Assembly: GCA_017428945.1 (NCBI GenBank)
Contig: JAFRPW010000006.1
Span: 122,136 to 186,135 of the forward strand
DNA: 64,000 nucleotides
Direction of reading: 5' to 3'
DNA from: Bacteroidales bacterium
Lineage (GTDB): Bacteria > Bacteroidota > Bacteroidia > Bacteroidales > UBA932
Part shown: one piece after another, positions 7,031 to 58,570 of the stretch
Layout: every line of letters begins with the position of its first letter
Position numbering within the stretch: the stretch's first letter is position 1
The notes under the pieces: model-generated
Databases searched by the model: none
What the model was told of the DNA's origin: nothing
The model's input: only the letters and a program-made list of their open reading frames with translations
Program-made: the position numbers and the translations under genes

Positions 7031-7067
7031 TGTAAAAGGTTCGGTTTTTTATGCCGAACCTTTTACA
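7031..7067 (+). terminator. Family C palindrome, copy 1 (likely terminator of ychF)
   Basis: Perfect 14-bp inverted arms, TGTAAAAGGTTCGG and CCGAACCTTTTACA, enclose a 9-nt loop starting with six T. The A-rich outer left arm and T-rich outer right arm make it usable as a terminator in both directions. It starts four bases after the ychF stop. The same palindrome recurs at 9889-9925. Confidence 0.75.
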
Positions 7068-7099
7068 TTCTACGGCCTGTAATGCCGTTTTGCGTGAAT

Positions 7100-7129
7100 G
7101 GTTCGGTCACTTTTACCGAACCTTTTACA
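7100..7129. terminator. Family C palindrome, shortened copy 2
   Basis: Eight-base arms GGTTCGGT and ACCGAACC enclose 7 nt, followed by TTTTACA. The right half is identical to copy 1, while the left outer TGTAAAA part is lost. It lies four bases beyond the stop of the convergent CpXC gene, so copies 1 and 2 stand back to back between two convergent genes. Confidence 0.6.
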
Positions 7130-7133
7130 TTTT

Positions 7134-9888: not shown

Positions 9889-9925
9889 TGTAAAAGGTTC
9901 GGCACAAAAAACCGAACCTTTTACA
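9889..9925 (-). terminator. Family C palindrome, copy 3
   Basis: The 14-bp arms TGTAAAAGGTTCGG and CCGAACCTTTTACA are identical to copy 1, again with a 9-nt loop. Read on the minus strand the loop is TTTTTTGTG, versus TTTTTTATG in copy 1. It begins three bases after the stop of the peptidase/barrel gene, so its position relative to the upstream gene matches copy 1. Confidence 0.75.
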
Positions 9926-16567: not shown

Positions 16568-17611
16568 ATGATAGAAAAGAAACTTTGGGGCACCGCGCCC
16601 GACGGAAAGGAAATCTACCTCTATACTCTTACAAATGCCTCCGGTGCCTATGTACAGCTTTGCAGCGTTGGAGCCGCCATCGTTTCAATTGTAGTGCCGG
16701 ACAAAAACGGCAAGCTTGGCGATGTGGTTATGGGCTTTAACAGTGCCAGTGACTATGTGAACGAAAAGCCCTGCGCCGGAAAGATTCCAGGTCGCTATGC
16801 CAACCGTATTGCCAAGGGCAAGTTCACACTGGACGGAGTTGAATACACCCTGCCCATCAATAACGGCCCTAATCATTTGCATGGCGGCCCTGCCGGCTTC
16901 CACAAGCAGGTCTGGGACAGCCGCATAGATGGAGATGCCGTAGAGTTCATGTACTTTGCAGCTGACGGAGAGGCCGGCTATCCGGGTAATTTGAAAGTAG
17001 TTGCACATTACACCTGGGGAGAGGACAATTCCTTGAAACTTGTCATGACCGCGGAAACGGACAAGCCCACGGTTGTCAACCTCACCAACCACGTCTATTT
17101 CAACCTTGACGGAGAGGGCTCCGGAAGCGTTTTGGACCACAAACTGGAACTGAATGCTTCCCAGTATCTTCCTACAGACGAGACCCTTATCCCCCTTGGA
17201 GAGCCGGAAGACGTTGCCGGAACGCCCATGGACTTTGTTGAGGCAAAGCCCCTTGGACAGGATATCAAGGCAGACTTCCCGGCGCTCAAATACGGCAAGG
17301 GATATGACAACTGCTATCTGATTGACGGCTATATTCCCGGCCAGCTTTCTACTGCAGCCGATTTGTGGGGTGCCGTTTCCGGCCGCCACCTTGAGATTCT
17401 CACCACCCAGCCAGCCGTGCAGGTGTATACCGGCAACTGGCTCAGCGGCGGCCTCACCGGCAAATGCGGCCGCCCGTATGAGGACTACGACGCCGTAGCC
17501 ATCGAGTGCCAGCACGCCCCGGATTCTCCCAACCACCCGGAATACCCCACAACCGTGTTAAGGCCTGGCGAGGTCTTCGAAGAGGCCATTATCTTTGCTT
17601 TTGACGCGTAA
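16568..17611 (+). CDS. galM: Aldose 1-epimerase (mutarotase)
   Basis: GalM interconverts alpha and beta anomers of galactose or glucose, supplying alpha-galactose to GalK. The 347-residue protein has no signal peptide, so it is cytoplasmic. Family motifs: GKIPGRYANRIAKGKFTLDG, NNGPNHLHGGPAGFHKQVW (active-site His), VVNLTNHVYFNLDG, and AVAIECQHAPDSPNHPEYP with the catalytic Glu near the end. The gene stands alone, with a -7 box upstream and a family A repeat 24 nt downstream. Together with galK at 7.7 kb it could process galactose from galactomannan. Confidence 0.95.
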   Translation: MIEKKLWGTAPDGKEIYLYTLTNASGAYVQLCSVGAAIVSIVVPDKNGKLGDVVMGFNSASDYVNEKPCAGKIPGRYANRIAKGKFTLDGVEYTLPINNGPNHLHGGPAGFHKQVWDSRIDGDAVEFMYFAADGEAGYPGNLKVVAHYTWGEDNSLKLVMTAETDKPTVVNLTNHVYFNLDGEGSGSVLDHKLELNASQYLPTDETLIPLGEPEDVAGTPMDFVEAKPLGQDIKADFPALKYGKGYDNCYLIDGYIPGQLSTAADLWGAVSGRHLEILTTQPAVQVYTGNWLSGGLTGKCGRPYEDYDAVAIECQHAPDSPNHPEYPTTVLRPGEVFEEAIIFAFDA

Positions 17612-17635
17612 AGCGGCCACTCCGTTCTCCTCCAC

Positions 17636-17758
17636 CGAACACGCTCGCGAGCACTTTTCCCCGTTTTGCCGCCTATTTTGCACTTGAGGCACCATTTAAA
17701 CAACGGCTCAAGTGCATTTTGGGTCGTTTAAAGCCATTATTGCACTCGAGCGTGTTTG
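17636..17758 (+). repeat. Family A structured repeat, copy A1
   Basis: A 123-bp element starts CGAACACGCTCGCGAGC and ends GCACTCGAGCGTGTTTG, giving terminal inverted repeats around AACACGCTCG. Inside, TGCACTTGAG (17679-17688) pairs perfectly with CTCAAGTGCA (17707-17716), and a third arm TGCACTCGAG (17741-17750) can pair with the same middle arm at 9 of 10 positions. TTTAAACAACGG fills the inner loop. It lies between galM and mutS. Two further copies are at 20465 and 27161. Confidence 0.85.
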
Positions 17759-17788
17759 GGCAAAGGGGTTAAAGCGGAGAAAAAGTGT

Positions 17789-17796
17789 TATATTTG
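17789..17796 (+). promoter_or_regulatory. mutS -7 box
   Basis: TATATTTG fits TAnnTTTG and ends 7 nt before the chosen mutS ATG at 17804, implying a leader of at most a few bases. It begins 31 nt after the end of repeat A1. No well-spaced TTTG is present. Confidence 0.6.
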
Positions 17797-17803
17797 TATT
17801 CCT

Positions 17804-20431
17804 ATGGCAAAGCCCCTGCAAGATACGCCTCTCATTAAGCAATTCTTTGAGGTAAAGGCACAACATCCTGAAGCATTGTTGCTTTACAGGGTGGGTGACT
17901 TCTATGAAAGTTACTCGGACGACGCCGTCACGGCATCCCGCGTGCTGGGGCTTGTGCTTACCAAGAAATCCAACGGGGACAAGGGCCATGTGGCCATGGC
18001 AGGATTCCCGCACCACGCTCTTGAGACATATCTCACCAAGCTTGTGCGCGCCGGCTACAAGGTTGCCGTGTGCGACCAACTGGAAGACCCTAAGTTTGCC
18101 AAGAAACTGGTAAAGAGGGGGATAACTGAGATCGTTACCCCCGGCATTTCTTTCGGAGAAGGTATGCTGGAGCAGAAGGAAAACAACTTCCTCTGCGGCA
18201 TCACCGTGGAGAAGGATGTCTTTGGCGCTGCATTCCTTGACGTTTCCACGGGCCAGTTTCAGGTGGCCCAGGGCTCGCTGGACTTTGTAAACACCCTGGT
18301 GGGCTCTCTTTCTCCGAGGGAGATAGTTGTCCAGAGAGGCTATGAAAAAGGCTTCAAGGAGCGCCTGGGAGATTTTTTCTTCACTTCAATAGACGAGTGG
18401 GCCTTTGTCTACGAGGCCGCCGTGGAGCGCCTCAAAAAGCAGCTTGGCGTAGATTCCCTGAAAGGTTACGGCATAGACGGCTGTCCGCTGGGCGTATGCT
18501 CTGCCGGTGCCATCCTGGTGTATCTGGAGCAGACTTGCCATACCGGACTAAAGAACATATCGTCCATCGGCAGGCTGGACCAGTCCAAGTACGTGTGGAT
18601 GGACAAATTCACCCTCAGGAACCTGGAGGTATTTGCCTCCGCCGGCGGTCCGGAGGGAGTGTCGCTTATACAGACCATAGACAGGACATCGTCCCCCATG
18701 GGCGCGAGGCTCTTGAGAAACTGGCTTGCCCTGCCCATTCTTGATTTGAAGGAACTCAATGCCCGCTACGATATCGTCCAGTTCCTCATGGATAACCAGG
18801 AGGCCCTGGAGGAGACCGCCCGTGACCTTGGAACCATGGGAGACATTGAGCGCATCCTGGGCCGCATTGCCAACGGAAAAGCGCTTCCCAGGGAAGTTGT
18901 GCAGCTTGGCAGGGCGCTGGAGCTCACCGGTCCCGTGCGTCAGAGGCTGGAAGGGGCATCGGCACCTCTGGACAAACTCCTGAAAGGCCTCAAGGGCTGC
19001 GAAAGGCTCCTTGCCGATATCCGCAAAACCCTGGCCCCGGAACCCGCCACTCAGCTTGGGAAAGGCCCCGTGATTGGCGCGGGCGTGGACCCGGAGCTTG
19101 ACCGCCTCCGCGAAATCTCCGGCGGCGGAAAGGATTACCTCCTTGCCATGCAGCAGAGGGAGGCGGAGAGGACAGGGATATCGTCCCTCAAGATAGCCTA
19201 CAATAATGTTTTCGGGTACTACATCGAGGTTCGCAATACCTTTAAGGACAAGGTTCCGCCGGAGTGGATCAGAAAGCAGACGCTGGTTAACGCGGAGCGC
19301 TACATAACCGAGGAGCTCAAGCAGTACGAGGAGCAGATCCTTACGGCCGAGGACACCATCTACGCCATAGAGACGCGCATTTATGCAGAGCTCATCGGCA
19401 AGATACAGGCGCAGATTCCGGACATACAGGCCAACTGCCGCATCCTTGCAAAACTGGACGTGCTGTGCTCTTTTGCCGCACAGGCGCTGGAACGCTCCTA
19501 CTGCCGCCCGGTGCTGGAGGAGGGAAAGGCCATAGACATACGCCAGGGCCGCCATCCCGTCATAGAAACGCTCATGGCTCCCGGAGAAGAATACGTTCCC
19601 AACGATGTCTACCTGGATGCGGACAAACAGCAGATAATCATCCTCACCGGTCCCAACATGGCCGGTAAGAGTGCCCTGCTGCGCCAGACCGCACTGATTG
19701 TCCTCATGGCCCAGGCGGGCTCTTTTGTGCCGGCCTCTTCCGCGCACATCGGCTGGGTGGACAAGATTTTCACCCGCGTTGGCGCCACGGACAACATCTC
19801 CCGCGGGGAGTCCACCTTCATGGTGGAAATGCTGGAGACGGCCATGATTCTTAACAACCTCAGCGGCCGTTCCCTGGTGCTTCTGGACGAGATTGGCCGC
19901 GGCACGTCCACCTACGACGGCATGTCCATAGCCCGCGGTATAGTGGAGTACATTCACGAATACGGAAAAGGCGCAAAGACCTTATTTGCAACGCATTATC
20001 ACGAGCTCAACGACCTCGAGGGCATCTTCCCGCGAGTTAAGAACTATCATGTGGCGGTGAAGGAAGTTGGTAAGGAGGTTATATTCCTTCGTACACTGAA
20101 GGAAGGCGGTACGGCCCACAGTTTCGGTATCCATGTGGCCCGCATGGCCGGCATGCCAAAGCAGGTTTTGGACAGTGCAGAACGCACTCTGAAGGCCCTC
20201 GAGAACAGCCAGACGCTTGAGCGCGTTGGCGCCCTCACCCCCGTGAAGCCCCACACTGTAAAGGAGGGCCGCATAGAAAGCGACGGCTCCCTCCAGCTCT
20301 CCATGTTCCAGCTTGACGATCCCCTTCTGGAATCTCTCCGCGACCGCCTCAAGGGAGCCGACCTCAACAACATGACTCCGCTTCAGGCCTTTGACCTGCT
20401 GAGGGCAATGAAGGAAGAGCTGGGGCTGTAG
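17804..20431 (+). CDS. mutS: DNA mismatch repair ATPase MutS
   Basis: MutS recognises mismatches and small loops and starts mismatch repair. The 875-residue length matches MutS1. The mismatch-reading Phe-x-Glu is present in YRVGDFYESYSDDA; the ATPase domain has Walker A GPNMAGKSALLRQ near residue 616, RGESTFMVEM, Walker B LVLLDEIGRGTSTYDG and the ATHYHEL switch. The ATG at 17804 is chosen because it directly follows a -7 box and matches the usual N-terminus; a longer frame from 17756 would begin inside the repeat region. The gene is bracketed by family A repeats in direct orientation. Confidence 0.98.
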   Translation: MAKPLQDTPLIKQFFEVKAQHPEALLLYRVGDFYESYSDDAVTASRVLGLVLTKKSNGDKGHVAMAGFPHHALETYLTKLVRAGYKVAVCDQLEDPKFAKKLVKRGITEIVTPGISFGEGMLEQKENNFLCGITVEKDVFGAAFLDVSTGQFQVAQGSLDFVNTLVGSLSPREIVVQRGYEKGFKERLGDFFFTSIDEWAFVYEAAVERLKKQLGVDSLKGYGIDGCPLGVCSAGAILVYLEQTCHTGLKNISSIGRLDQSKYVWMDKFTLRNLEVFASAGGPEGVSLIQTIDRTSSPMGARLLRNWLALPILDLKELNARYDIVQFLMDNQEALEETARDLGTMGDIERILGRIANGKALPREVVQLGRALELTGPVRQRLEGASAPLDKLLKGLKGCERLLADIRKTLAPEPATQLGKGPVIGAGVDPELDRLREISGGGKDYLLAMQQREAERTGISSLKIAYNNVFGYYIEVRNTFKDKVPPEWIRKQTLVNAERYITEELKQYEEQILTAEDTIYAIETRIYAELIGKIQAQIPDIQANCRILAKLDVLCSFAAQALERSYCRPVLEEGKAIDIRQGRHPVIETLMAPGEEYVPNDVYLDADKQQIIILTGPNMAGKSALLRQTALIVLMAQAGSFVPASSAHIGWVDKIFTRVGATDNISRGESTFMVEMLETAMILNNLSGRSLVLLDEIGRGTSTYDGMSIARGIVEYIHEYGKGAKTLFATHYHELNDLEGIFPRVKNYHVAVKEVGKEVIFLRTLKEGGTAHSFGIHVARMAGMPKQVLDSAERTLKALENSQTLERVGALTPVKPHTVKEGRIESDGSLQLSMFQLDDPLLESLRDRLKGADLNNMTPLQAFDLLRAMKEELGL

Positions 20432-20464
20432 CCGTGCCCCTTTGCCCGAACACGCATCTATACC

Positions 20465-20587
20465 CGAACACGCTCGCGAGCACTTCTCCCCGTTTTACCC
20501 CCGTTTTTGCTCTTAATGCGCCTTTTAAACAACGGCTCGAGTGCATTTTTGGCCGTTTTTAGCCTTTTTTGCACTCGAGCGTGTTCG
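20465..20587 (+). repeat. Family A structured repeat, copy A2
   Basis: This 123-bp copy has the same orientation as A1 and the same ends (CGAACACGCTCGCGAGC, GCACTCGAGCGTGTTCG). Here the middle arm CTCGAGTGCA (20536-20545) pairs perfectly with the right arm TGCACTCGAG (20570-20579), while the left arm is decayed (TGCTCTTAATG). A stray CCCGAACACGC at 20445 repeats its first bases. It lies between the convergent ends of mutS and a lipoprotein gene. Confidence 0.85.
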
Positions 20588-20612
20588 GAAAGGCTAGCCG
20601 CCAACCGGGCTG

Positions 20613-21083
20613 TCAGTCTTTCTGGAGTTCTGCTACGACATCAAGCTTGAAGGGTTTGCCATTACCATCCGTCATGTCCATTTTGATGGAATAATGGGTG
20701 TCGTCAATCTTCTTTGTTGTCTGCGTGCCCTTTTGGGGTTCCATGAAGTAATCATACCCGTCTCCATAGAAGGACATGGCAATTACGTCGCCATATCCGA
20801 CACCTTCCAATGTTTCTGCGTTGAAAGTAACGGTGCGGCCTTTCATGTCTTCTCCAAAGGCTGCAGGTGTGTCTACCTGGCCAGCGCCATGGATTTCGAT
20901 GTCCGCATGGACTTCCACGAGGAGAAAGAACATGTGCCAGCCTTCGATTCTGTAATGGACATCTATGTCCGTGTAGGTCTTGCCGTCAAATGTTATGGAA
21001 TTCTTGGGTTCGTCGTCCTTCTTGCAGCCGGCGAAAAGGAGCGCGGCCAGAGAGATGGCCAGGAGTGCTTTCAATGCTTTCAT
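20613..21083 (-). CDS. Small uncharacterised lipoprotein
   Basis: A 156-residue product from ATG 21083 begins with a lipoprotein leader (MKALKALLAISLAALLFAGCKK, Cys20). The mature part is a small beta-rich domain (NSITFDGKTYTDIDVHYRI, KGRTVTFNAETLEGVGYGD, YFMEPQKGTQTTKKI). I do not recognise a family or an active site. It starts four bases after the stop of the next lipoprotein gene upstream on the same strand, so the two form a pair that is probably expressed together. They share a similar size and layout and may be distant paralogues. Confidence 0.6.
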   Translation of the reverse strand: MKALKALLAISLAALLFAGCKKDDEPKNSITFDGKTYTDIDVHYRIEGWHMFFLLVEVHADIEIHGAGQVDTPAAFGEDMKGRTVTFNAETLEGVGYGDVIAMSFYGDGYDYFMEPQKGTQTTKKIDDTHYSIKMDMTDGNGKPFKLDVVAELQKD

Positions 21084-21087
21084 GGTA

Positions 21088-21609
21088 TTAGAAATTCTTA
21101 GGATCAACATAATCGGCAGTTACGTGCCAGATGTAGACTCGGCCATCGGTGAGCGTGCCGTCAATGTCTATTGTGTAGTTTCCGCTCTTTTCCTTGGTGA
21201 GCTTGAGGGTGCCTTTTTTGAAGCAGGTGCCTTCTCCGTAGCGCTGGGTTTCTGTCCAGCAGGCCTGGTTGCCCTGTTCCTTGAGGTTGTACAGACCCGG
21301 CCAAGTGCCGTCCATGGTATTAATTTCCAGAGTGTAGTTTACGGAGGAGTCAAACTTTGAAAGGTCTATTTTCTTGCCTACACATTCGGGGGCAAGGCGG
21401 GGGAAACCATGGATATTAAAACCGTCGGCCTCGCCGTCAAAGTCCATGACAACGGCCTCGAAGCCGCCGTGATCGGCGACCGTGCACATGGCATGGGTTA
21501 CCGGAACGGTAATGTCTCCCAGCTTTACGTAGTTTCCTTCGAGGTTGTCTTTTCCGCAGCTGCAGACAAGCAGCGCTGCAAAAGATACAAGGAGAATGAG
21601 TTTTTTCAT
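21088..21609 (-). CDS. Small uncharacterised lipoprotein, first of a pair
   Basis: A 173-residue product with leader MKKLILLVSFAALLVCSCGK and a lipid-anchored Cys at about position 18. The mature domain is beta-rich with paired segments (NYVKLGDITVPVTHAM, FKKGTLKLTKEKSGNYTIDIDGTLTDGR), and closes with YIWHVTADYVDPKNF. No known motif is seen. It has a -7 box 33 nt upstream and leads a two-gene operon with the 20613-21083 lipoprotein. It lies between mutS and a kelch/AraC regulator transcribed in the same direction. Confidence 0.6.
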   Translation of the reverse strand: MKKLILLVSFAALLVCSCGKDNLEGNYVKLGDITVPVTHAMCTVADHGGFEAVVMDFDGEADGFNIHGFPRLAPECVGKKIDLSKFDSSVNYTLEINTMDGTWPGLYNLKEQGNQACWTETQRYGEGTCFKKGTLKLTKEKSGNYTIDIDGTLTDGRVYIWHVTADYVDPKNF

Positions 21610-21642
21610 TGTATGTGTTTTTTAAGATATTGCCATTCATTG

Positions 21643-21650
21643 CAAATATA
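21643..21650 (-). promoter_or_regulatory. -7 box for the lipoprotein pair
   Basis: TATATTTG on the minus strand ends 33 nt before the ATG at 21609. The nearest upstream TTTG is 26 bp away, longer than usual. Confidence 0.5.
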
Positions 21651-21721
21651 TGTGACCTGCAGGCGCGTGGGCCTTACAAATCACATAAAAGAGACTAACA
21701 AAACAATAAATGTTTGGCGTT

Positions 21722-23374
21722 TTACGCCTTTTTAGCCGCTTCTTTCCACTCCTGGGGGGTCATCCCCGTCATCGACTTGAATGTGCGGAAGAAGGACTGC
21801 TCCGACGAGAAGCCTGATTCTTCCGCTACGTCGGAAAGGCGCATCTGGGGCTTGGTGCGCATAAGGTTCTGTGCGTACCGCACTCTGTAGCCCGCTATGA
21901 ATTCCGGGAAAGACATGCCTCGCTGCGTGTTGATGCAGGCAGAGATATAAGTGACATTTGTGCCCAGGGTTTCGGCAACATCGGCCTTACGGAGGCCCGG
22001 CCGGCGGAAGGCTTCTTTATCCTCGACGAGGGTTATGATGCGGCTCATGAGGTCTTCCGGGGCGGCAGGAGGGACTATATCGCCAGGCTCTTTCTTCCGG
22101 CCAAAACCAGACAGGAGAAGCGTCAGAACAGCTGCCAGCAGGATGCCGGCAATAATCCATGCCCAAGGGGCCGCCATCCTTTCCCTGGCTATTCCGGGAG
22201 AGAAGGCAAACACTGCCCTGCTCGGGGAGAAATTGTTCTCCACGATGCCTCCGGCGCAGGCGATGCGGCCATCGGGCAATAAAGCGAAGGCCGGTCCGGT
22301 TTTGGGAAATTCCGGCAGCGGCTCTTTGGTGTAGTACATGGACCACGAGGCCTTGTCGCCGACGAGCGAGGCGTCATAGTTCAGCTTTAGAACATATACC
22401 CGGGAAACGCTGTCGCAACCTGACATATATGCCGTCCGGGCAGCCTTGTCCACAATAAACTGTGTATACAGGGTCAGGCTGTCTCCGTCGACGCCTTTAA
22501 GCGGTATTTCTCCATCTGTTTCCAGCAGGGAAAAGCGTCCGTCTTCCAGTTTCAGGAAACCTATCCTGTCGTCGGATATGTTCCTGGCAGGCATAAGGTA
22601 CCGGTATTCGCCGATGAGGTAGTCGGCGGGCGAGAAGAAAGGATTGTAGGCGAGGGGGCGCCATTCGTTAAATATCTCAGGAACAAAGGAATCGCCCTTC
22701 AGGCAGTCTGTGACGGAGGTTGTGAATTCCTCCCCGTAATTGTCCATGCTCCCCAGGATATAGGCGTCACTGGCGGAGACGGGAAGGATCAGCGGCGATG
22801 CACGGTGTGCCGATACCTTTTTTTCCAGGGTTATGCCTTTTTGGGGATCCAGGACGGCAATGGCGTCGTCATCGTACCAGTTGCCGGAAAAGACCACCTC
22901 TCCTCCGGAAAGAAGGGCGGCAGAGGCAAAGGCGCGTTTTTTGTCCAGGATGTATGGCAGGGCGGTAAACTCATGGGTTTCAGGGTTATATGATTCCACG
23001 CCGAAGGTCCGGCCAACGCCGAAACTTTCCGAGCTGCCGCCCCCGACTATCAGCCGTCCGTCCGGAAGCCTTACGGAATAACCGCCGTCGTGGGGGTAGA
23101 CGCTGTTGATGAGGTGCCACCGTCCGCCGCTTAAATACTCGGCCGTGTTGACAGGGATGAATCCGTCCGTGTGTCCTCCGATGACTGTGAGTTCGCCTCC
23201 CGCGACGGTAATCACGTGCGTGCCCCTGGCCTGGTTCAGGTTAGGAAGGCGCTCCTTCCCAAGCTCATAGAAAGGCACGCCGTCCACAACGCTGACAGGT
23301 TCCTGCGGGCCGGAACCGCCACCGCAGGATACCGCCATTATAATAAGAGCCGCATATGTGGAAACAGTGCGCAT
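21722..23374 (-). CDS. One-component regulator: kelch-type propeller, TM helix, AraC DNA-binding domain
   Basis: The 550-residue protein has an N-terminal export signal with a lipobox-like end (IIMAVSCGG), then about 350 residues of kelch/galactose-oxidase-type propeller repeats (VITVAGGELTVIGGHTDG, YSVRLPDGRLIVGGGSSE, FALLPDGRIACAGG). A single TM helix lies at about 400-423 (AWIIAGILLAAVLTLLLSG). The C-terminal ~105 residues are a two-helix-turn-helix AraC domain (KADVAETLGTNVTYISACIN, MRLSDVAEESGFSSEQSFFRTFK). The topology suggests direct signalling from periplasm to DNA without a kinase. The ligand and targets are unknown; the neighbouring lipoprotein pair and the divergent glycosyltransferase are candidates. 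Confidence 0.75.
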   Translation of the reverse strand: MRTVSTYAALIIMAVSCGGGSGPQEPVSVVDGVPFYELGKERLPNLNQARGTHVITVAGGELTVIGGHTDGFIPVNTAEYLSGGRWHLINSVYPHDGGYSVRLPDGRLIVGGGSSESFGVGRTFGVESYNPETHEFTALPYILDKKRAFASAALLSGGEVVFSGNWYDDDAIAVLDPQKGITLEKKVSAHRASPLILPVSASDAYILGSMDNYGEEFTTSVTDCLKGDSFVPEIFNEWRPLAYNPFFSPADYLIGEYRYLMPARNISDDRIGFLKLEDGRFSLLETDGEIPLKGVDGDSLTLYTQFIVDKAARTAYMSGCDSVSRVYVLKLNYDASLVGDKASWSMYYTKEPLPEFPKTGPAFALLPDGRIACAGGIVENNFSPSRAVFAFSPGIARERMAAPWAWIIAGILLAAVLTLLLSGFGRKKEPGDIVPPAAPEDLMSRIITLVEDKEAFRRPGLRKADVAETLGTNVTYISACINTQRGMSFPEFIAGYRVRYAQNLMRTKPQMRLSDVAEESGFSSEQSFFRTFKSMTGMTPQEWKEAAKKA

Positions 23375-23377
23375 ACG

Positions 23378-23405
23378 CAAATATAAGGATAATTTGCTAA
23401 CTTTG
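23378..23405. promoter_or_regulatory. Divergent -7 boxes for the AraC-type regulator and the glycosyltransferase
   Basis: TATATTTG on the minus strand (23385-23378) ends only 3 nt before the ATG at 23374. TAACTTTG on the plus strand (23398-23405) ends 6 nt before the ATG at 23412. The whole intergenic region is 37 bp, so the regulator could control both directions. Confidence 0.6.
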
Positions 23406-23411
23406 TAATCT

Positions 23412-24668
23412 ATGAAGCGAGTGCTGGTAATAACGTACTATTGGCCGCCGTCCGGTGGCTCCGGCGTGCAGAGGTGGGTGAAGTTTGCAAAGTACCTGCC
23501 CCAGGAGGGCTGGGAGCCCGTCATCTACGCCCCGGAGAACGCAGACTATCCATCAACTGACCTCACTATGGGAAGCGATCTTCCTGATACACTGGAGGTT
23601 ATCCGCCGTCCCATCCGTGAGCCGTACGCCATTTACCGCAGGCTCATGGGAAAGAGTGCAAAAAGGGAGGTCACGGAAATATCGTCCGGAAAAAAGACCT
23701 GGAAGCAGCGGCTGTCGCTGTGGATTCGGGCTAATATTTTTGTGCCGGACCCGCGCGTGTGGTGGGTGGGGCCAAGCGTCAAGTTCCTGAAAAAATACCT
23801 CAGGGAGCACCCTGTGGAGGCTATTGTGACTACCGGGCCGCCGCACTCGGTGCATCTTATCGGCCTAAAGCTGCACAAGGCGCTGGGAACGCCCTGGGTG
23901 CCGGATTTCAGGGACCCTTGGAGCCGGATGTACTACCTTAAGCACCTGCCCATGACCGCCGCCACCTGGAGGCAGCTCAGGAATCAGGAGCAGGCGGTGC
24001 TGGATGGCTGTTCCACGGTCCTGGCGGTAACTCCAATCGTCCAGGAAGAGTTCCGGGCGCAGACAAATACGCCCGTGGCCATGATTACAAACGGGTACGA
24101 TGCCTCCGACTTCGCCGGTCCCGCCCCTGAGCCGGACGGCTTTTTCAACATAACCCACACCGGCCTGTTTGCAAAGGACGGCAACCCCGTCACGCTCTGG
24201 AAAGTGCTGGGAGAGATGCCTGAGAGCTTCCGCGCAAAGCTGCGCATCCGCCTTGCCGGAACGGTGGACAGGGAGATCCTGGAGGCGATATCGGCCCAGG
24301 GCCTTGGCGGGAACGTGGTGAGCCTTGGATATCTGGACCACGCCGGAGCGGTGCGGGAGCAGAGAGCGGCCACCATCCTGCTTCTCCCCTTGAGGAACGA
24401 CCCCCAGTACAGGCCCATCCTTCCGGGAAAGCTGTTCGAGTACCTGGCATCCAGAAGGCCGATCCTTGGAATAGGCCAGACAGACGGGGCCATGGCGCGC
24501 GTCATTTCGGAGGCGCAGGCGGGGGAAACCTTTGCCTGGGACGATGAAGCCGGCATCCGCAGCTTCCTGGAAAAGGAGCCTCGCGCCACGGAAGGAAACA
24601 TAGAAAAATACACCCGGGAAAACCTCACCGCAGAGCTTGCCCGGCTGCTTGAAAGCATATCGGAATGA
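23412..24668 (+). CDS. Glycosyltransferase, GT4-like
   Basis: The 418-residue cytoplasmic protein shows a GT-B fold: RVLVITYYWPPSGGSGVQRWVKFAKYL with a Gly-rich N-terminal loop, VPDFRDPWSRMYYL, DGCSTVLAVTPIVQEEF, and a C-terminal donor-binding region (NPVTLWKVLGEM, LPGKLFEYLASRRPILGI) ending in the family's E-rich helix. It would transfer a sugar from a nucleotide donor to a glycan or lipid; donor and acceptor are not evident. The stop overlaps the next ATG (ATGA), so it is coupled to the YfhO-family membrane protein, a pairing that fits surface glycan modification. Confidence 0.85.
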   Translation: MKRVLVITYYWPPSGGSGVQRWVKFAKYLPQEGWEPVIYAPENADYPSTDLTMGSDLPDTLEVIRRPIREPYAIYRRLMGKSAKREVTEISSGKKTWKQRLSLWIRANIFVPDPRVWWVGPSVKFLKKYLREHPVEAIVTTGPPHSVHLIGLKLHKALGTPWVPDFRDPWSRMYYLKHLPMTAATWRQLRNQEQAVLDGCSTVLAVTPIVQEEFRAQTNTPVAMITNGYDASDFAGPAPEPDGFFNITHTGLFAKDGNPVTLWKVLGEMPESFRAKLRIRLAGTVDREILEAISAQGLGGNVVSLGYLDHAGAVREQRAATILLLPLRNDPQYRPILPGKLFEYLASRRPILGIGQTDGAMARVISEAQAGETFAWDDEAGIRSFLEKEPRATEGNIEKYTRENLTAELARLLESISE

Positions 24669-27190
24669 AAGAGATTTGGAAAAAGATAGCCATAGGGGCG
24701 GGCGTTGTGCTTGTGCTCCTTGGTATCAGCTACGGCTTTGTGCCTCAGGTGCTTCAGGGAAAGATTGTTAACCAGAGCGACATCTCCGGCTACGTGGGCA
24801 TGTCCCACGAGATGAACACCTGGAACAAGGAGCATCCGGACGATCCCACGTACTGGACAGACTCCATGTTCGGCGGCATGCCCACGACGGCCATTTCCAC
24901 GCAGAACGGCGGAGACTACACGCAGGTGCTGTACGATCTGCTTTTTGCCGGCAAGCGTCCGGCTACATACCTGTTTGTGGCGCTTCTGGGGGCGTTTTTG
25001 CTGTTTCTTGCGCTTGGCGTAAGCTGGCCGCTTGCCCTTGGAGGCGCGGTGGCCATTGCCTTCTGCAGCTACAATTTCCAGATAATCCAGGTTGGCCACA
25101 ACACCAAGATGCAGGCCATCGCCCTCATGCCGTGGGTGCTGGCCGCGCTGGTGTATACCTATAAGTCCAAACGCCCGTGGCAAATGCTCCTGGGCTCCGT
25201 CCTCTTTGCACTTGCCCTGAGCATGCAGATTAAGGCAAACCACCAGCAGATTACGTATTATCTTGCCATAATGGTGCTGCTGTATGCCCTTGTGGAGCTT
25301 ATTGGAACCATACGGGACAAGTGCTGGAAGGGCTTTATCAAGGCAAGTCTCCTGCTGCTGCTCGTTGGCGGGGCCGGCATTGCAACCAACGTGAACAAGC
25401 TGCTTCCGCTGGCAAAATACACCCCGAACACCATGCGCGGCGGCTCCGAGCTTTCCGGCAGCGGCAACAACGCCAAGGGGCTTGACCTGGACTACGCCAC
25501 AGCCTGGAGCTATGGCTGGGAAGAACTTCCCAACCTCATGATTCCGGATTTCAACGGCGGCGCCTCGGCCGGGGCCGTGAATCCGGACAAGTCGGAAACC
25601 ATAAAGCTCCTCAAGCGCGCCGGACAGAGAAACCTCAAGGAAACGGCTAAGAGCCTTCCGCTGTATTGGGGCCCGCAGCCGTTTACCGCGGGGCCTATGT
25701 ATATGGGTGCAATAACCGTCTTCCTCTTTGTGCTTGGCCTATTCCTGTACAGGAAGCGGGAAAAATGGTGGCTCGTGGCGGCGTGTGTCATTGCCATTTT
25801 TATGGCGCTTGGCAGCCACTTCATGCCGTTTACGGCGTTCTGTTTCAAGTATTTGCCGCTTTATAACAAGTTCCGCACGGTGTCCATGGCGCTGGTGGTC
25901 CTGCAAGTGGCGCTGCCGGTGCTGGGAATACTTACCCTGGACGGAATAGTGAAGGAAAAGTATAACAGGAAAGACGTCCTGAAGGCCAACTGGTGGGCTT
26001 TGGGTATTACAGGAGGTTTCAGCCTTCTTTGCTGCCTGTTCCCCGGCCTGTTCGGCAGTTTTTCCGGCGCATCGGACGCCCAGATGCAGGACGTTCTTGT
26101 GGACGCCCTGGTCAAAGACCGCGTGATGCTGTTCAGGCACGATGCCTTTGTGTCCCTGGCCTATATCCTCGCTTCTTCGCTGCTTATCCTCTGGGGCTTC
26201 ACCAAGAATGGCCGCAAACAGGCATCGGCAATAGGGATCTGTGCGCTTGTGCTTGTGAACATGTTTTTAGTGGGTAAGCGCTACCTCAACGCGGACCATT
26301 TCACCACCCCCAAGGACTTCAACAAGCCCTTCACGGAGCGCCCCGTAGACAAGATTATCCTTGCCGATGAAGACCCCCAGTACCGCGTCCTTGACCTCAC
26401 GGTGAACGTCTTCAATTCCTCCGTGCCCAGCTACCATCACAAGAACGTTGGCGGCTACTCCCCGGCCAAGCTCCAGCGCTACCAGGACCTCATAGAGAAG
26501 TACCTATCCGCAGAAATCAACGGCTTGTACAAAGCCATGGGAGAGGTAGAGACGATGGAAGATTTTGCCGCCCACATGGCAGCCCAAACCCCGGTCCTCA
26601 ACGCCCTCAATACGCGATATGTAGTAGTAGACCCCAATTTCCCGCCGGTGGTGAACGATGCCGCTTACGGCCCGGCGTGGTTTGTAACTGACTACGTAAC
26701 CGCCTCCACCCCGGACGAGGAAATAGCCCTTATTGGCAGAGTGGATCTGAAGACCACGGCGGTGCTGTCAAGGGAGATCCCCGATCAGGTCGGGGATGAC
26801 GAAGCCAGGACCGTCGGGGATGACGAAGCTGCGTCATTGCCGGCCACGACCGGCAATCTCATTGACATGGTATCCTATGCTCCCAACAGACTCAAATACC
26901 ATTACACAGCACCGTCTGAGGCCCTTGCCGTATTCAGTGAGATCTACTACCCCGACGGCTGGCACGCAACGGTTGACGGCGAGCCACTGGAACTGCTAAG
27001 GGCAGACTGGACACTCCGTGCAGCCCTGCTGCCCGCAGGAGAACATGACGTGGAGATGTACTTCCTTCCGTATAGCTATAGCCTTGGCGCCGACATCTCC
27101 CGCGCCTCGTCAATACTGCTGATACTATTGCTGCTGGGCGCCATTGCCGGAGCGGTTATGCGAACACGCTCGAGTGCAAAAAAGGCTTAA
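24665..27190 (+). CDS. YfhO-family membrane protein with repeat-derived insertion and C-terminus
   Basis: The 841-residue protein has a TM segment near residues 10-27 and many more between about 95 and 540, plus a C-terminal extracytoplasmic beta-domain (VSYAPNRLKYHYTAPSEALAVFSEIYYPDGWHATVDGEPLEL). This is the YfhO/GT-C-like layout; family members in Firmicutes act in lipoteichoic acid glycosylation, but the Bacteroidota role is unknown. Residues about 704-731 (including IPDQVGDDE and VGDDEAASLPA) are encoded by a palindromic repeat inserted in frame. The last residues MRTRSSAKKA and the stop come from family A repeat A3. It is translationally coupled to the glycosyltransferase. Confidence 0.8.
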   Translation: MKEIWKKIAIGAGVVLVLLGISYGFVPQVLQGKIVNQSDISGYVGMSHEMNTWNKEHPDDPTYWTDSMFGGMPTTAISTQNGGDYTQVLYDLLFAGKRPATYLFVALLGAFLLFLALGVSWPLALGGAVAIAFCSYNFQIIQVGHNTKMQAIALMPWVLAALVYTYKSKRPWQMLLGSVLFALALSMQIKANHQQITYYLAIMVLLYALVELIGTIRDKCWKGFIKASLLLLLVGGAGIATNVNKLLPLAKYTPNTMRGGSELSGSGNNAKGLDLDYATAWSYGWEELPNLMIPDFNGGASAGAVNPDKSETIKLLKRAGQRNLKETAKSLPLYWGPQPFTAGPMYMGAITVFLFVLGLFLYRKREKWWLVAACVIAIFMALGSHFMPFTAFCFKYLPLYNKFRTVSMALVVLQVALPVLGILTLDGIVKEKYNRKDVLKANWWALGITGGFSLLCCLFPGLFGSFSGASDAQMQDVLVDALVKDRVMLFRHDAFVSLAYILASSLLILWGFTKNGRKQASAIGICALVLVNMFLVGKRYLNADHFTTPKDFNKPFTERPVDKIILADEDPQYRVLDLTVNVFNSSVPSYHHKNVGGYSPAKLQRYQDLIEKYLSAEINGLYKAMGEVETMEDFAAHMAAQTPVLNALNTRYVVVDPNFPPVVNDAAYGPAWFVTDYVTASTPDEEIALIGRVDLKTTAVLSREIPDQVGDDEARTVGDDEAASLPATTGNLIDMVSYAPNRLKYHYTAPSEALAVFSEIYYPDGWHATVDGEPLELLRADWTLRAALLPAGEHDVEMYFLPYSYSLGADISRASSILLILLLLGAIAGAVMRTRSSAKKA
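26774..26860. repeat. Composite palindromic repeat inserted in frame in the YfhO gene
   Basis: The stretch holds GAGAT followed by CCCCGATCAGGTCGGGG and ATGACG, a near palindrome also found at the edges of family B repeats at 46309 and 48904. GTCGGGGATGACGAAGC then recurs with a 24-bp period (26789, 26813). A second palindrome, ATTGCCGG..CCGGCAAT (26836-26857), closes it. The total preserves the reading frame of the surrounding gene. Confidence 0.8.
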
Positions 27191-27282
27191 AATGCCCCAA
27201 AATGCTCTCGAGCCGTTGTTTAAAAGGTGGCTCAAGAGCAAAAATGGCGAAATAGAAGCAAAAACGCTCGCGAGCGTGTTCG
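27161..27282 (-). repeat. Family A structured repeat, copy A3 (inverted)
   Basis: The 122-bp copy is in the opposite orientation to A1 and A2. On the minus strand the left arm TGCTCTTGAGC and middle arm GCTCGAGAGCA pair over 11 positions with one G-U. Compared with A1 the pair A-T has become T-A, a compensatory change. The first 30 bp encode the end of YfhO and its stop. It lies between convergent YfhO and rnhB genes; no other feature is seen in the gap. Confidence 0.85.
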
Positions 27283-27325
27283 CGAGGGACGCCTCAACGT
27301 GGGAACAGCGCAGGATGCCGTCCTG

Positions 27326-27940
27326 TCAGAACAGCGAGGGTTCCAGCTCCTTGACATGAAAGCTTTTCCGGTGCCAGGGCGTGAGGCCGTGGAGCCGGAT
27401 TGCTTCTATGTGCTCCGGGGTGGGGTAGCCCATGTTGCGGTCCCAGCCGTACTGGGGGTACTCCAGGGCAATGCTGCGCATGAAATCGTCCCTGTAGGTC
27501 TTGGCAAGAACCGACGCGGCGGCTATGGAGGCGTAGGTGGCGTCGCCGTGGACTACGGTCTGGTAATCCTTGAAGCCGTAGCGGTCAAAGGGGCGGAACT
27601 TGTTGCCGTCAATAAGGAGAAATGACGGCGCCGGAGAAAGCCTCAAAACAGCCCTCTGCATGCCTGTGACCGATGCCCAGAGTATATTCAGCTTGTCTAT
27701 TTCCTCTGCGCTCACGGCCTCTACGGCCCATGCAATTGCTTCCTTTTCAATGATAGGCCGGAGCTCCTCGCGGGCCCGCTCCGTCATCTGCTTGGAGTCG
27801 TTAAGAAGCGGATGGAAAAAGTCGTCAGGCAGTATCACCGCAGCAACATATACCGGCCCGGCAAGGGGACCGCGGCCGGCCTCGTCGCAGCCGGCCTCCA
27901 GCCTTCCGGGCTCAAGGTATTGCTTAAGATGCGGTGTCAA
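27326..27940 (-). CDS. rnhB: Ribonuclease HII
   Basis: RNase HII cuts RNA in RNA-DNA hybrids and removes single ribonucleotides from DNA. The 204-residue protein has GCDEAGRGPLAGPVY with catalytic D19 and E20, DSKQMTERARE, FLLIDGNKF with a third Asp, VVHGDATYASIAAASVLAKTYRD and the C-terminal HGLTPWHRKSF. The start is a TTG overlapping the mrp stop as TTGA; the next Met is after the active site, so the TTG must be used or the enzyme would be dead. Such a four-base overlap suggests coupled translation. Confidence 0.93.
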   Translation of the reverse strand: MTPHLKQYLEPGRLEAGCDEAGRGPLAGPVYVAAVILPDDFFHPLLNDSKQMTERAREELRPIIEKEAIAWAVEAVSAEEIDKLNILWASVTGMQRAVLRLSPAPSFLLIDGNKFRPFDRYGFKDYQTVVHGDATYASIAAASVLAKTYRDDFMRSIALEYPQYGWDRNMGYPTPEHIEAIRLHGLTPWHRKSFHVKELEPSLF

Positions 27941-46282: not shown

Positions 46283-46299
46283 CCACCCCTCTCCTCCGC

Positions 46300-46468
46300 C
46301 CTTTTCCCGTCATCCCCGACCCGATCGGGGATCTCATCCACCAAAATGGCGTTTTTGGTGGACAAGTTGCCGTTTTGACCAGTTTGTCCACGGATTTGGC
46401 GTTTTTGGTGGACAAGTTGGGGGTTTGGCCAGTTTGTCCACGGAAATGGGGTGTTTTGGTGGATGGGT
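46300..46468 (+). repeat. Family B multi-hairpin repeat, copy B1
   Basis: Units of about 50 bp repeat GTTTTTGGTGGACAAGTT (46351, 46401) and contain GTGGACAA..TTGTCCAC hairpins. The tandem part is bounded by CATCCACCAAAA (46335-46346) and TTTTGGTGGATG (46454-46465), a perfect 12-bp inverted repeat, and preceded by CCCCGACCCGATCGGGG. The reverse complement of copy B2 matches it along its length. It fills the gap between the PUL and the EF-G2 gene. Confidence 0.85.
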
Positions 46469-48750: not shown

Positions 48751-48938
48751 CTATCCACCAAAAACGGCAACTTGTCCACCAAAACCCGGCATTTCCGTGG
48801 ACAAACTGGCCAAAACCCCAACTTATCCACCAAAAACGCCAAATCGGTGGACAAACCCGGCAAAACGGCAACTTGTCCACCAAAAACGCCATTTCGGTGG
48901 ATGAGATCCCAGATCAGGTCGGGGATGACGGGAAAAGG
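48751..48938 (-). repeat. Family B multi-hairpin repeat, copy B2 (inverted relative to B1)
   Basis: CAACTT(G/A)TCCACCAAAA recurs at 48768, 48819 and 48869, a period of 50-51 bp. Each unit carries TTGTCCACC paired with GGTGGACAA or a close variant. The right end carries CCCAGATCAGGTCGGGG, matching the B1 outer palindrome. Together B1 and B2 form an inverted pair around the EF-G2 gene. No gene is seen in 48666-48954. Confidence 0.85.
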
Positions 48939-48954
48939 ATGGAGGAGGGGGGGG

Positions 48955-58473: not shown

Positions 58474-58570
58474 ATTGCCCATCCATCCACCAAAAACGCC
58501 CATTTCCGTGGACAAACCGGCCAAAATGCCAACTTATCCACCAAAAACGCCATTTTGGTGGATGGGCAAT
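58474..58570. repeat. Family B repeat, copy B3, bounded by perfect inverted repeats
   Basis: ATTGCCCATCCA (58474-58485) and TGGATGGGCAAT (58559-58570) bound the element. Inside are two CCACCAAAAACG units and GTGGACAAACCGGCCAAAA, as in B1 and B2. It fills the intergenic region between two divergent genes and contributes to their promoters. Confidence 0.85.

Follow-up and report, generated by a model that had tools for sequence, protein, structure and literature searches.

Family A, a four-armed dispersed repeat of a Bacteroidales genome, and its probable cognate Y1 transposase

In this work we analysed family A, a repeat of about 123 nt present in three copies (A1, A2 and A3) between positions 17636 and 27282 of a 64,000-nucleotide stretch of a Bacteroidales genome (GCA_017428945.1, contig JAFRPW010000006.1, positions 122,136 to 186,135; hereafter the window). 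Family A is a REP-like repeat (REP, repetitive extragenic palindrome) linked to a REP-associated tyrosine transposase (RAYT) and devoid of the GTAG tag, a kind of repeat that is already known. It is very probably a non-autonomous mobile element of the REP/RAYT kind, with a Y1 (HUH) transposase encoded on contig C32 of the same genome (locus L088) as its cognate enzyme. An earlier sequence-only reading of the window had offered, among other guesses, a REP-like element moved in trans by a transposase; this guess is now well supported by the finding of a Y1-type gene flanked by the same element, and by the many relatives of this RAYT that are flanked by elements of their own.

Results

Copies, sequence and fold of family A

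The three copies lie in the window as first described (Table 1), and their common ends, CGAACACGCTCG, and centre, TTTAAACAACGGCTC, are exact in all of them save for one change at the far end of A1; identity to A2 is 85% for A1 and 83% for A3. Three is the correct count for the window but not for the genome (2.6 Mb in 47 contigs), where family A occupies 10 places, with 8 copies near full length. The element is composed of four short arms (a', a, a', a) separated by loops of about 24, 18 and 24 nt, and the C9 copy combines similar arms with different, longer loops. The single-stranded DNA of each window copy folds better than 200 of 200 dinucleotide shuffles (z -3.6, -4.7 and -6.3). It forms either two hairpins or one long hairpin, the middle arm being able to pair with the left or the right arm as first proposed. 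The last codons and the stop of the yfhO-like gene are supplied by A3. The enterobacterial repetitive intergenic consensus (ERIC) and bacterial interspersed mosaic elements (BIME) of enterobacteria are also imperfect palindromes between genes, and ERIC is of about the length of family A; the likeness meant here is one of position and length.

A gene for a Y1 transposase between inverted copies

A PF01797 search of the genome yielded 8 Y1 transposase-like genes, 4 of them above the cut-off, and a profile made from these 8 proteins brought the RAYT-like genes to 13 (14 matches, one gene being split). None of the loci of the 8 Pfam-found genes contains GAACACGC, and they were rejected as partners of family A. 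One of the 5 newly found genes, C32:114502-115347, is placed between two inverted family A copies, C32:113012-113135 (+) and 115348-115470 (-), the right-hand one of which begins directly after the transposase stop codon; a 142-nt stretch containing these copies is 97% identical between both sides. The transposase frame is open over 285 codons (C32:114490-115344) and carries the motifs THLH and YTFRN. The HxH motif and the tyrosine are invariant in 17 and in 31 aligned members of the family, and both are present in the protein of this genome. The AlphaFold model of the homologue L123, 60% identical to the C32 transposase, has a mean pLDDT (predicted local distance difference test) of 85; its best PDB match is 4er8 (E 8.1e-5), the structure of a RAYT in complex with a REP hairpin, followed by the ISDra2 and IS608 transposases (E 1e-3 or weaker). 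The homologue is thus predicted to have the HUH Y1 fold of tyrosine transposases.

A small gene for a GcrA/Myb-like helix–turn–helix protein (L088:1101-1493, C32:114102-114494) overlaps the RAYT start codon. It is kept beside the orthologues in L123 and L124 and beside the gutted transposase gene in L161 (see below), and a search of the remaining 37 named loci at E 1e-3 gave no match to it. It is a possible partner of the C32 transposase.

RAYT genes and their own repeats

For the 13 RAYTs of this genome, the flanks were compared with about 462 kb of its sequence, to which the window belongs. Repeats found elsewhere flank 9 of them (L079, L081, L083, L085, L086, L087, L088, L089 and L090), a count made without control, and the matches of these flank repeats assign family A to L088 and two other families of the window, B and C, to L089 and L079. 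A repeat common to both flanks was found in 26 of 38 named relatives of the C32 RAYT and, within 1.2 kb, in 6 of the 13 RAYTs of this genome. Placements drawn at random in this genome gave such a repeat in 12 of 300 cases, and shifted ones in the named loci in 4 of 65. With loci taken as independent, the Fisher values for 26/38 are 9e-21 (random) and 2e-11 (shifted), the relatives including near-duplicates (4 pairs more than 90% identical within the 31 aligned). DNA located 3' of RAYT genes also folds strongly (z <= -3 in 14 of 37, versus 3 of 60 other genes; p 6e-5). The named relatives come from uncultured Bacteroidales or Bacteroidia, and a chamber of the ruminant stomach is mentioned in 18 of 40 titles. 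As judged from these comparisons and from those between species (see below), a repeat family is particular to its transposase, one copy excepted (see Discussion).

Beside the RAYT of L050, a tandem array (L050:330-965) has an open reading frame in which NVTKxVTSPSK recurs; it is probably a repeat array rather than a gene.

Family A and its transposase in related genomes

A relative of the C32 transposase is present in 120 of 400 genomes of the genus at E 1e-20. Orthologues in G401 (UBA4360, L123; 60%) and G402 (RGIG3780, L124; 59%) are accompanied by an element with the arm and loop layout of family A and the same centre, CTTTTAAACA, the arms of which read differently; this L123-type element is found at about 29 places in G401 and about 18 in G402 (distinct places, counted by hand). 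The nearest relative found is G051, the metagenome-assembled genome RUI178 (85% complete; locus L161), in which the transposase is internally deleted, 28 N-terminal codons being joined, as we read the sequence, to the C-terminal tail (L161:4001-4120). One family A copy was found there, compared with 10 places in the genome of the window: it is the orthologue of A3, at the same place, and the intergenic site of A2 is empty. At the A3 site only these two genomes have a family A copy, 28 of 30 loci being without.

A search for further copies had been proposed with the first description; in addition to the places within the genome, a family A covariance model matches 17 of 300 genomes of the genus. 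Eleven of the 15 matching genomes other than this one and G051 have a relative of the C32 transposase, versus 120/400 overall, and close matches occur almost solely in this genome and G051. An exact pattern scan for family A in the named genomes, a set from which near relatives are possibly missing, gave 0 matches.

Compensatory change and conservation of the arms

The sequence-only reading had argued for selection on structure from an A-T pair of A1 that is T-A in A3. The arms of A1 and A3 are as it described them and the exchange is present, but it does not hold as evidence of selection: of 9 copies (3 in the window, 5 elsewhere in the genome and the G051 orthologue), 3 have T-A at this pair, 1 has A-T and 5, A2 among them, are unpaired there. 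On these 9 copies the long-hairpin fold has 91.1% of cells paired, which is equalled by 368 of 500 shuffles. The two-hairpin fold has 92.6%, with 61 of 500 shuffles as high, and its covariation score is reached by 110 of 500; its varying pair 89-132 is kept in 7 of 9 copies. Neither fold rises above shuffles in this test, and the compensatory change was dropped as an argument. Between the orthologous A3 copies of G051 and of this genome, 3 of 53 arm positions have changed compared with 19 of 63 loop positions (p 7e-4; the count omits 6 nucleotides at the outer left end, which G051 has lost). This conservation is better evidence than the compensatory change that the arms matter.

A loop-like motif close to TTTTTGGCCGTTTTT was seen by eye both in family A loops and in families with different arms (Table 1). 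Loop lengths over all inverted repeats are in excess at 5-6 and 16-18 and more weakly at 24-26, and on these figures a general 24-nt loop rule was not proposed.

Discussion

Family A among REP/RAYT-type systems

The C32 transposase most likely recognises family A hairpins on single-stranded DNA, as known RAYTs and IS200/IS605 enzymes do. By that analogy it would bind and cut this DNA and place new copies in trans into intergenic sites, three activities that are inferred for this protein. The REPtrons described in PMC2817692 consist of a Y1 gene bracketed by an inverted palindromic repeat that is also dispersed, with a repeat family for each transposase; repeats accumulate near the rayt gene in some genomes, and repeat and transposase co-evolve. 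The C32 RAYT resembles them, with family A copies in opposite orientation on its two sides and others dispersed in its own genome. Family A nevertheless differs from canonical GTAG REPs (20-40 nt, more than 100 per genome) by its length of about 123 nt, its four arms and long loops, its 10 places and the lack of GTAG at the hairpin foot, and the transposase, of about 285 amino acids, differs from RAYTs in being unrecognised by Pfam Y1_Tnp or NCBIfam. The initial statement that no such element is known was too strong, as non-GTAG repeats flanking RAYT-like transposases are described in PMC3733652 and PMC6006769. In the former, TIRtrons (TIRYT) are tyrosine transposase genes flanked by long non-GTAG inverted repeats belonging to moderately abundant families, to which family A, with its long non-GTAG inverted repeats beside a tyrosine transposase gene and its repeat family, is similar; as far as that text goes, TIRtrons, from other species, number up to a few genes per genome, compared with 13 RAYT-like genes in 2.6 Mb here. 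In PMC6006769, TnpA-REP subclass 2.6 (RAYT group 5), mostly from Bacteroidetes, has on its flanks 'atypical secondary structures' that recur at other places of the genome, and family A, too, flanks its transposase and has copies elsewhere; subclass 2.6 proteins as given there have a median of 179 amino acids and the motifs NH[LIV]H and YIH[QN]NP, whereas the C32 transposase has 285 amino acids, THLH and YTFRN. For subclass 2.3, that paper gives a number above five genes per genome.

Several observations weigh against family A being a mobile repeat of the C32 transposase. The copies are few and clustered, 9 of 10 places having another within 10 kb. GTAG is absent from all 9 copies on both strands (GGAG is present somewhere in 3 of the 9). 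No clear target duplication was seen by eye in the flanks of the copies, the empty A2 site of G051 being too diverged for a junction to be placed, and no transposition event was seen in the genomes compared. The C32 transposase has no match to Pfam Y1_Tnp, which is matched weakly by 2 of 17 members of its family, and no match in NCBIfam, REP_Tyr_transpos included, which 5 of the 8 other RAYT-like proteins of this genome match below its cut-off; the protein that was folded is the L123 homologue, not that of this genome. The flanks searched had no repeat common to both sides in 12 of 38 relatives and 7 of the 13 RAYTs of this genome (these flanks do not reach the upstream copy of the cognate RAYT, nor that of L123 or L124), and the control missing for the dispersed flank repeats must be counted here as well. 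Finally, repeat families are not strictly limited to genomes that carry their transposase, since one L123-type element is present in the genome of the window (C13:61718-61786, L199 and L202; E 6e-13), where the orthologous transposase goes with family A.

A different explanation is that family A is an RNA or DNA structure maintained by the host, such as a bidirectional terminator or an mRNA 3' end element kept by selection, with an incidental or historical link to the RAYT. The copies fold well, convergent genes flank A2 and A3, A1 and the C32 copies are found where genes end (placement relative to genes covers these copies), and the arms of the G051 A3 copy are better kept than its loops even though the RAYT is gutted there. 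We nevertheless consider this explanation improbable: a host structure would not be expected to be missing from nearly all loci at the A3 site or to have its close matches nearly restricted to this genome and G051, the family covaries no more than its shuffles do, and the repeats particular to each RAYT would be left unexplained. Termination of transcripts may nevertheless be a side effect of the copies. The length and the CGAACACGCTCG terminal inverted repeats would also suit a classical miniature inverted-repeat transposable element moved by a DDE transposase, which we regard as very unlikely, as the copies bracket a Y1-type gene and not a DDE gene (no search was aimed at DDE transposases) and, by eye, no clear target duplication is seen in their flanks. 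A structured RNA or riboswitch, which the sequence-only reading had also proposed and for which two alternative folds are possible on paper, is the least credible of all, since positions 17400-27500 have no Rfam match up to E 0.5 and the copies occur in both orientations and bracket a transposase gene.

Other repeats of the window

The family B and C elements of the window are listed in Table 1 with their probable RAYTs. A separate short repeat, GAGATCCCCGATCAGGTCGGGGATGACG, is present at 26774-26801, 46309-46336 and 48903-48930 of the window and also at other places in the genome.

Table 1. Family A copies and other repeats and segments discussed in the text. Plain numbers are window positions; other positions are preceded by the contig (C) or locus (L).
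Feature	Position	Strand	Remarks
Family A copy A1	17636..17758	+	between aldose-1-epimerase gene and mutS
A1 arms	17636-17653, 17679-17688, 17707-17716, 17741-17758		
Family A copy A2	20465..20587	+	directly 3' of mutS
Family A copy A3	27161..27282	-	inverted; overlaps 3' end of yfhO-like gene
Near-full-length family A copies	C1 (three), C47, C32 (two), C3, C9		
Shorter family A copies	C3:37905 and C9:38742		
TTTTTGGCCGTTTTT-like loop motif	L038:3398-3515, L048:8105-8163, L042:12754-12847		also family A loops
Family B array, GTGGACAA arms	46286..46463	+	left of fusA-like gene; RAYT probably L089 at C18:52539
Family B array, inverted copy	48775..48952	-	right of fusA-like gene; arms 92% complementary
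Further family B copy	58486..58562	+	
Family C palindromes, TGTAAAAGGTTCGG arms, two units	7031..7131	+	RAYT probably L079 at C9:11992
Family C palindrome, inverted partner	9889..9925	-	
fusA-like (elongation-factor-G-like) segment	46472..48742	-	92.7% identical DNA in G051/RUI178, where it is inverted with respect to left neighbour gene

Close pairs of elements and gene inversion

Elements often come in close pairs: with a limit of 3.6 kb, picked after the distances were seen, a neighbour is present for 6 of 10 family A copies in this genome (expected 0.25), and for 8 of 29 and 10 of 18 L123-type elements in G401 (expected 2.2, p 0.016) and G402 (expected 1.0). Nine of 12 close pairs are inverted (strands read by hand), and 3 of those 9 bracket the RAYT itself. 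Between G402 and G401, a GH3 gene (PF00933, PF01915) and both its flanking elements form a single 2.4 kb block that is inverted, with colinear DNA on both sides. In the window, the fusA-like segment has a family B pair at both ends and is inverted in G051 with respect to its left neighbour. The left junction of the G051 gene is 5 bp with no elements, and the contig ends 0.7 kb to the right of the gene with the right neighbour unmatched, so that only the left breakpoint is documented; flanking repeats occur at 1 of the 15 fusA loci tested, that of this genome. Support for inversion by paired elements would thus amount to one clean case (GH3) and one half-documented case (the fusA-like segment), and both were chosen since elements are present, which makes them a biased sample. 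A1 and A3 each lie at the edge of a block inverted relative to G051, the two blocks being different.

In 20 regions of the genus around yfhO (L237-L256), several of which end at contig ends, mutS, GT, yfhO, mrp, rnhB and other genes tend to stay neighbours, often with a changed orientation. Inverted repeats flank mutS at 1 of 16 loci (in this genome; 19 nt, inside the direct pair A1/A2), mrp at 4 of 15 and rnhB at 1 of 14 (31 nt), and none were found at the loci of g290 (0/15), g139 (0/9), g157 (0/6), yfhO (0/20) and GT (0/19). The idea that every flip of the mutS-yfhO region is due to inverted elements was rejected, as most of these genes are without them today. Single core genes, mutS and mrp among them, were seen in both orientations between the same neighbours in L237-L256.

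We propose only tentatively that pairs of RAYT-linked elements, often inverted and a few kb apart with one or a few genes between them, drive repeated in-place inversion of genes or small blocks, core genes included. Inversion might proceed by recombination between inverted copies or through the transposase, two routes that the data do not separate. On this doubtful proposal, the genus would keep its gene neighbourhoods while the orientation of the genes is scrambled. No report tying RAYT-linked repeats to single-gene inversion was found in a limited literature search, made largely from listings.

In conclusion, a testable specificity links repeats that were anonymous to a transposase; the genome concerned has 13 RAYT-like genes in its 2.6 Mb. 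The orthologous transposases, whose elements have quite different arms in the same layout, form a natural set for studying how RAYTs read hairpins. If it is true that paired elements drive inversion, this would help to explain the scrambling of gene orientation in the genus, and would give a handle on the evolution of bacterial gene orientation.

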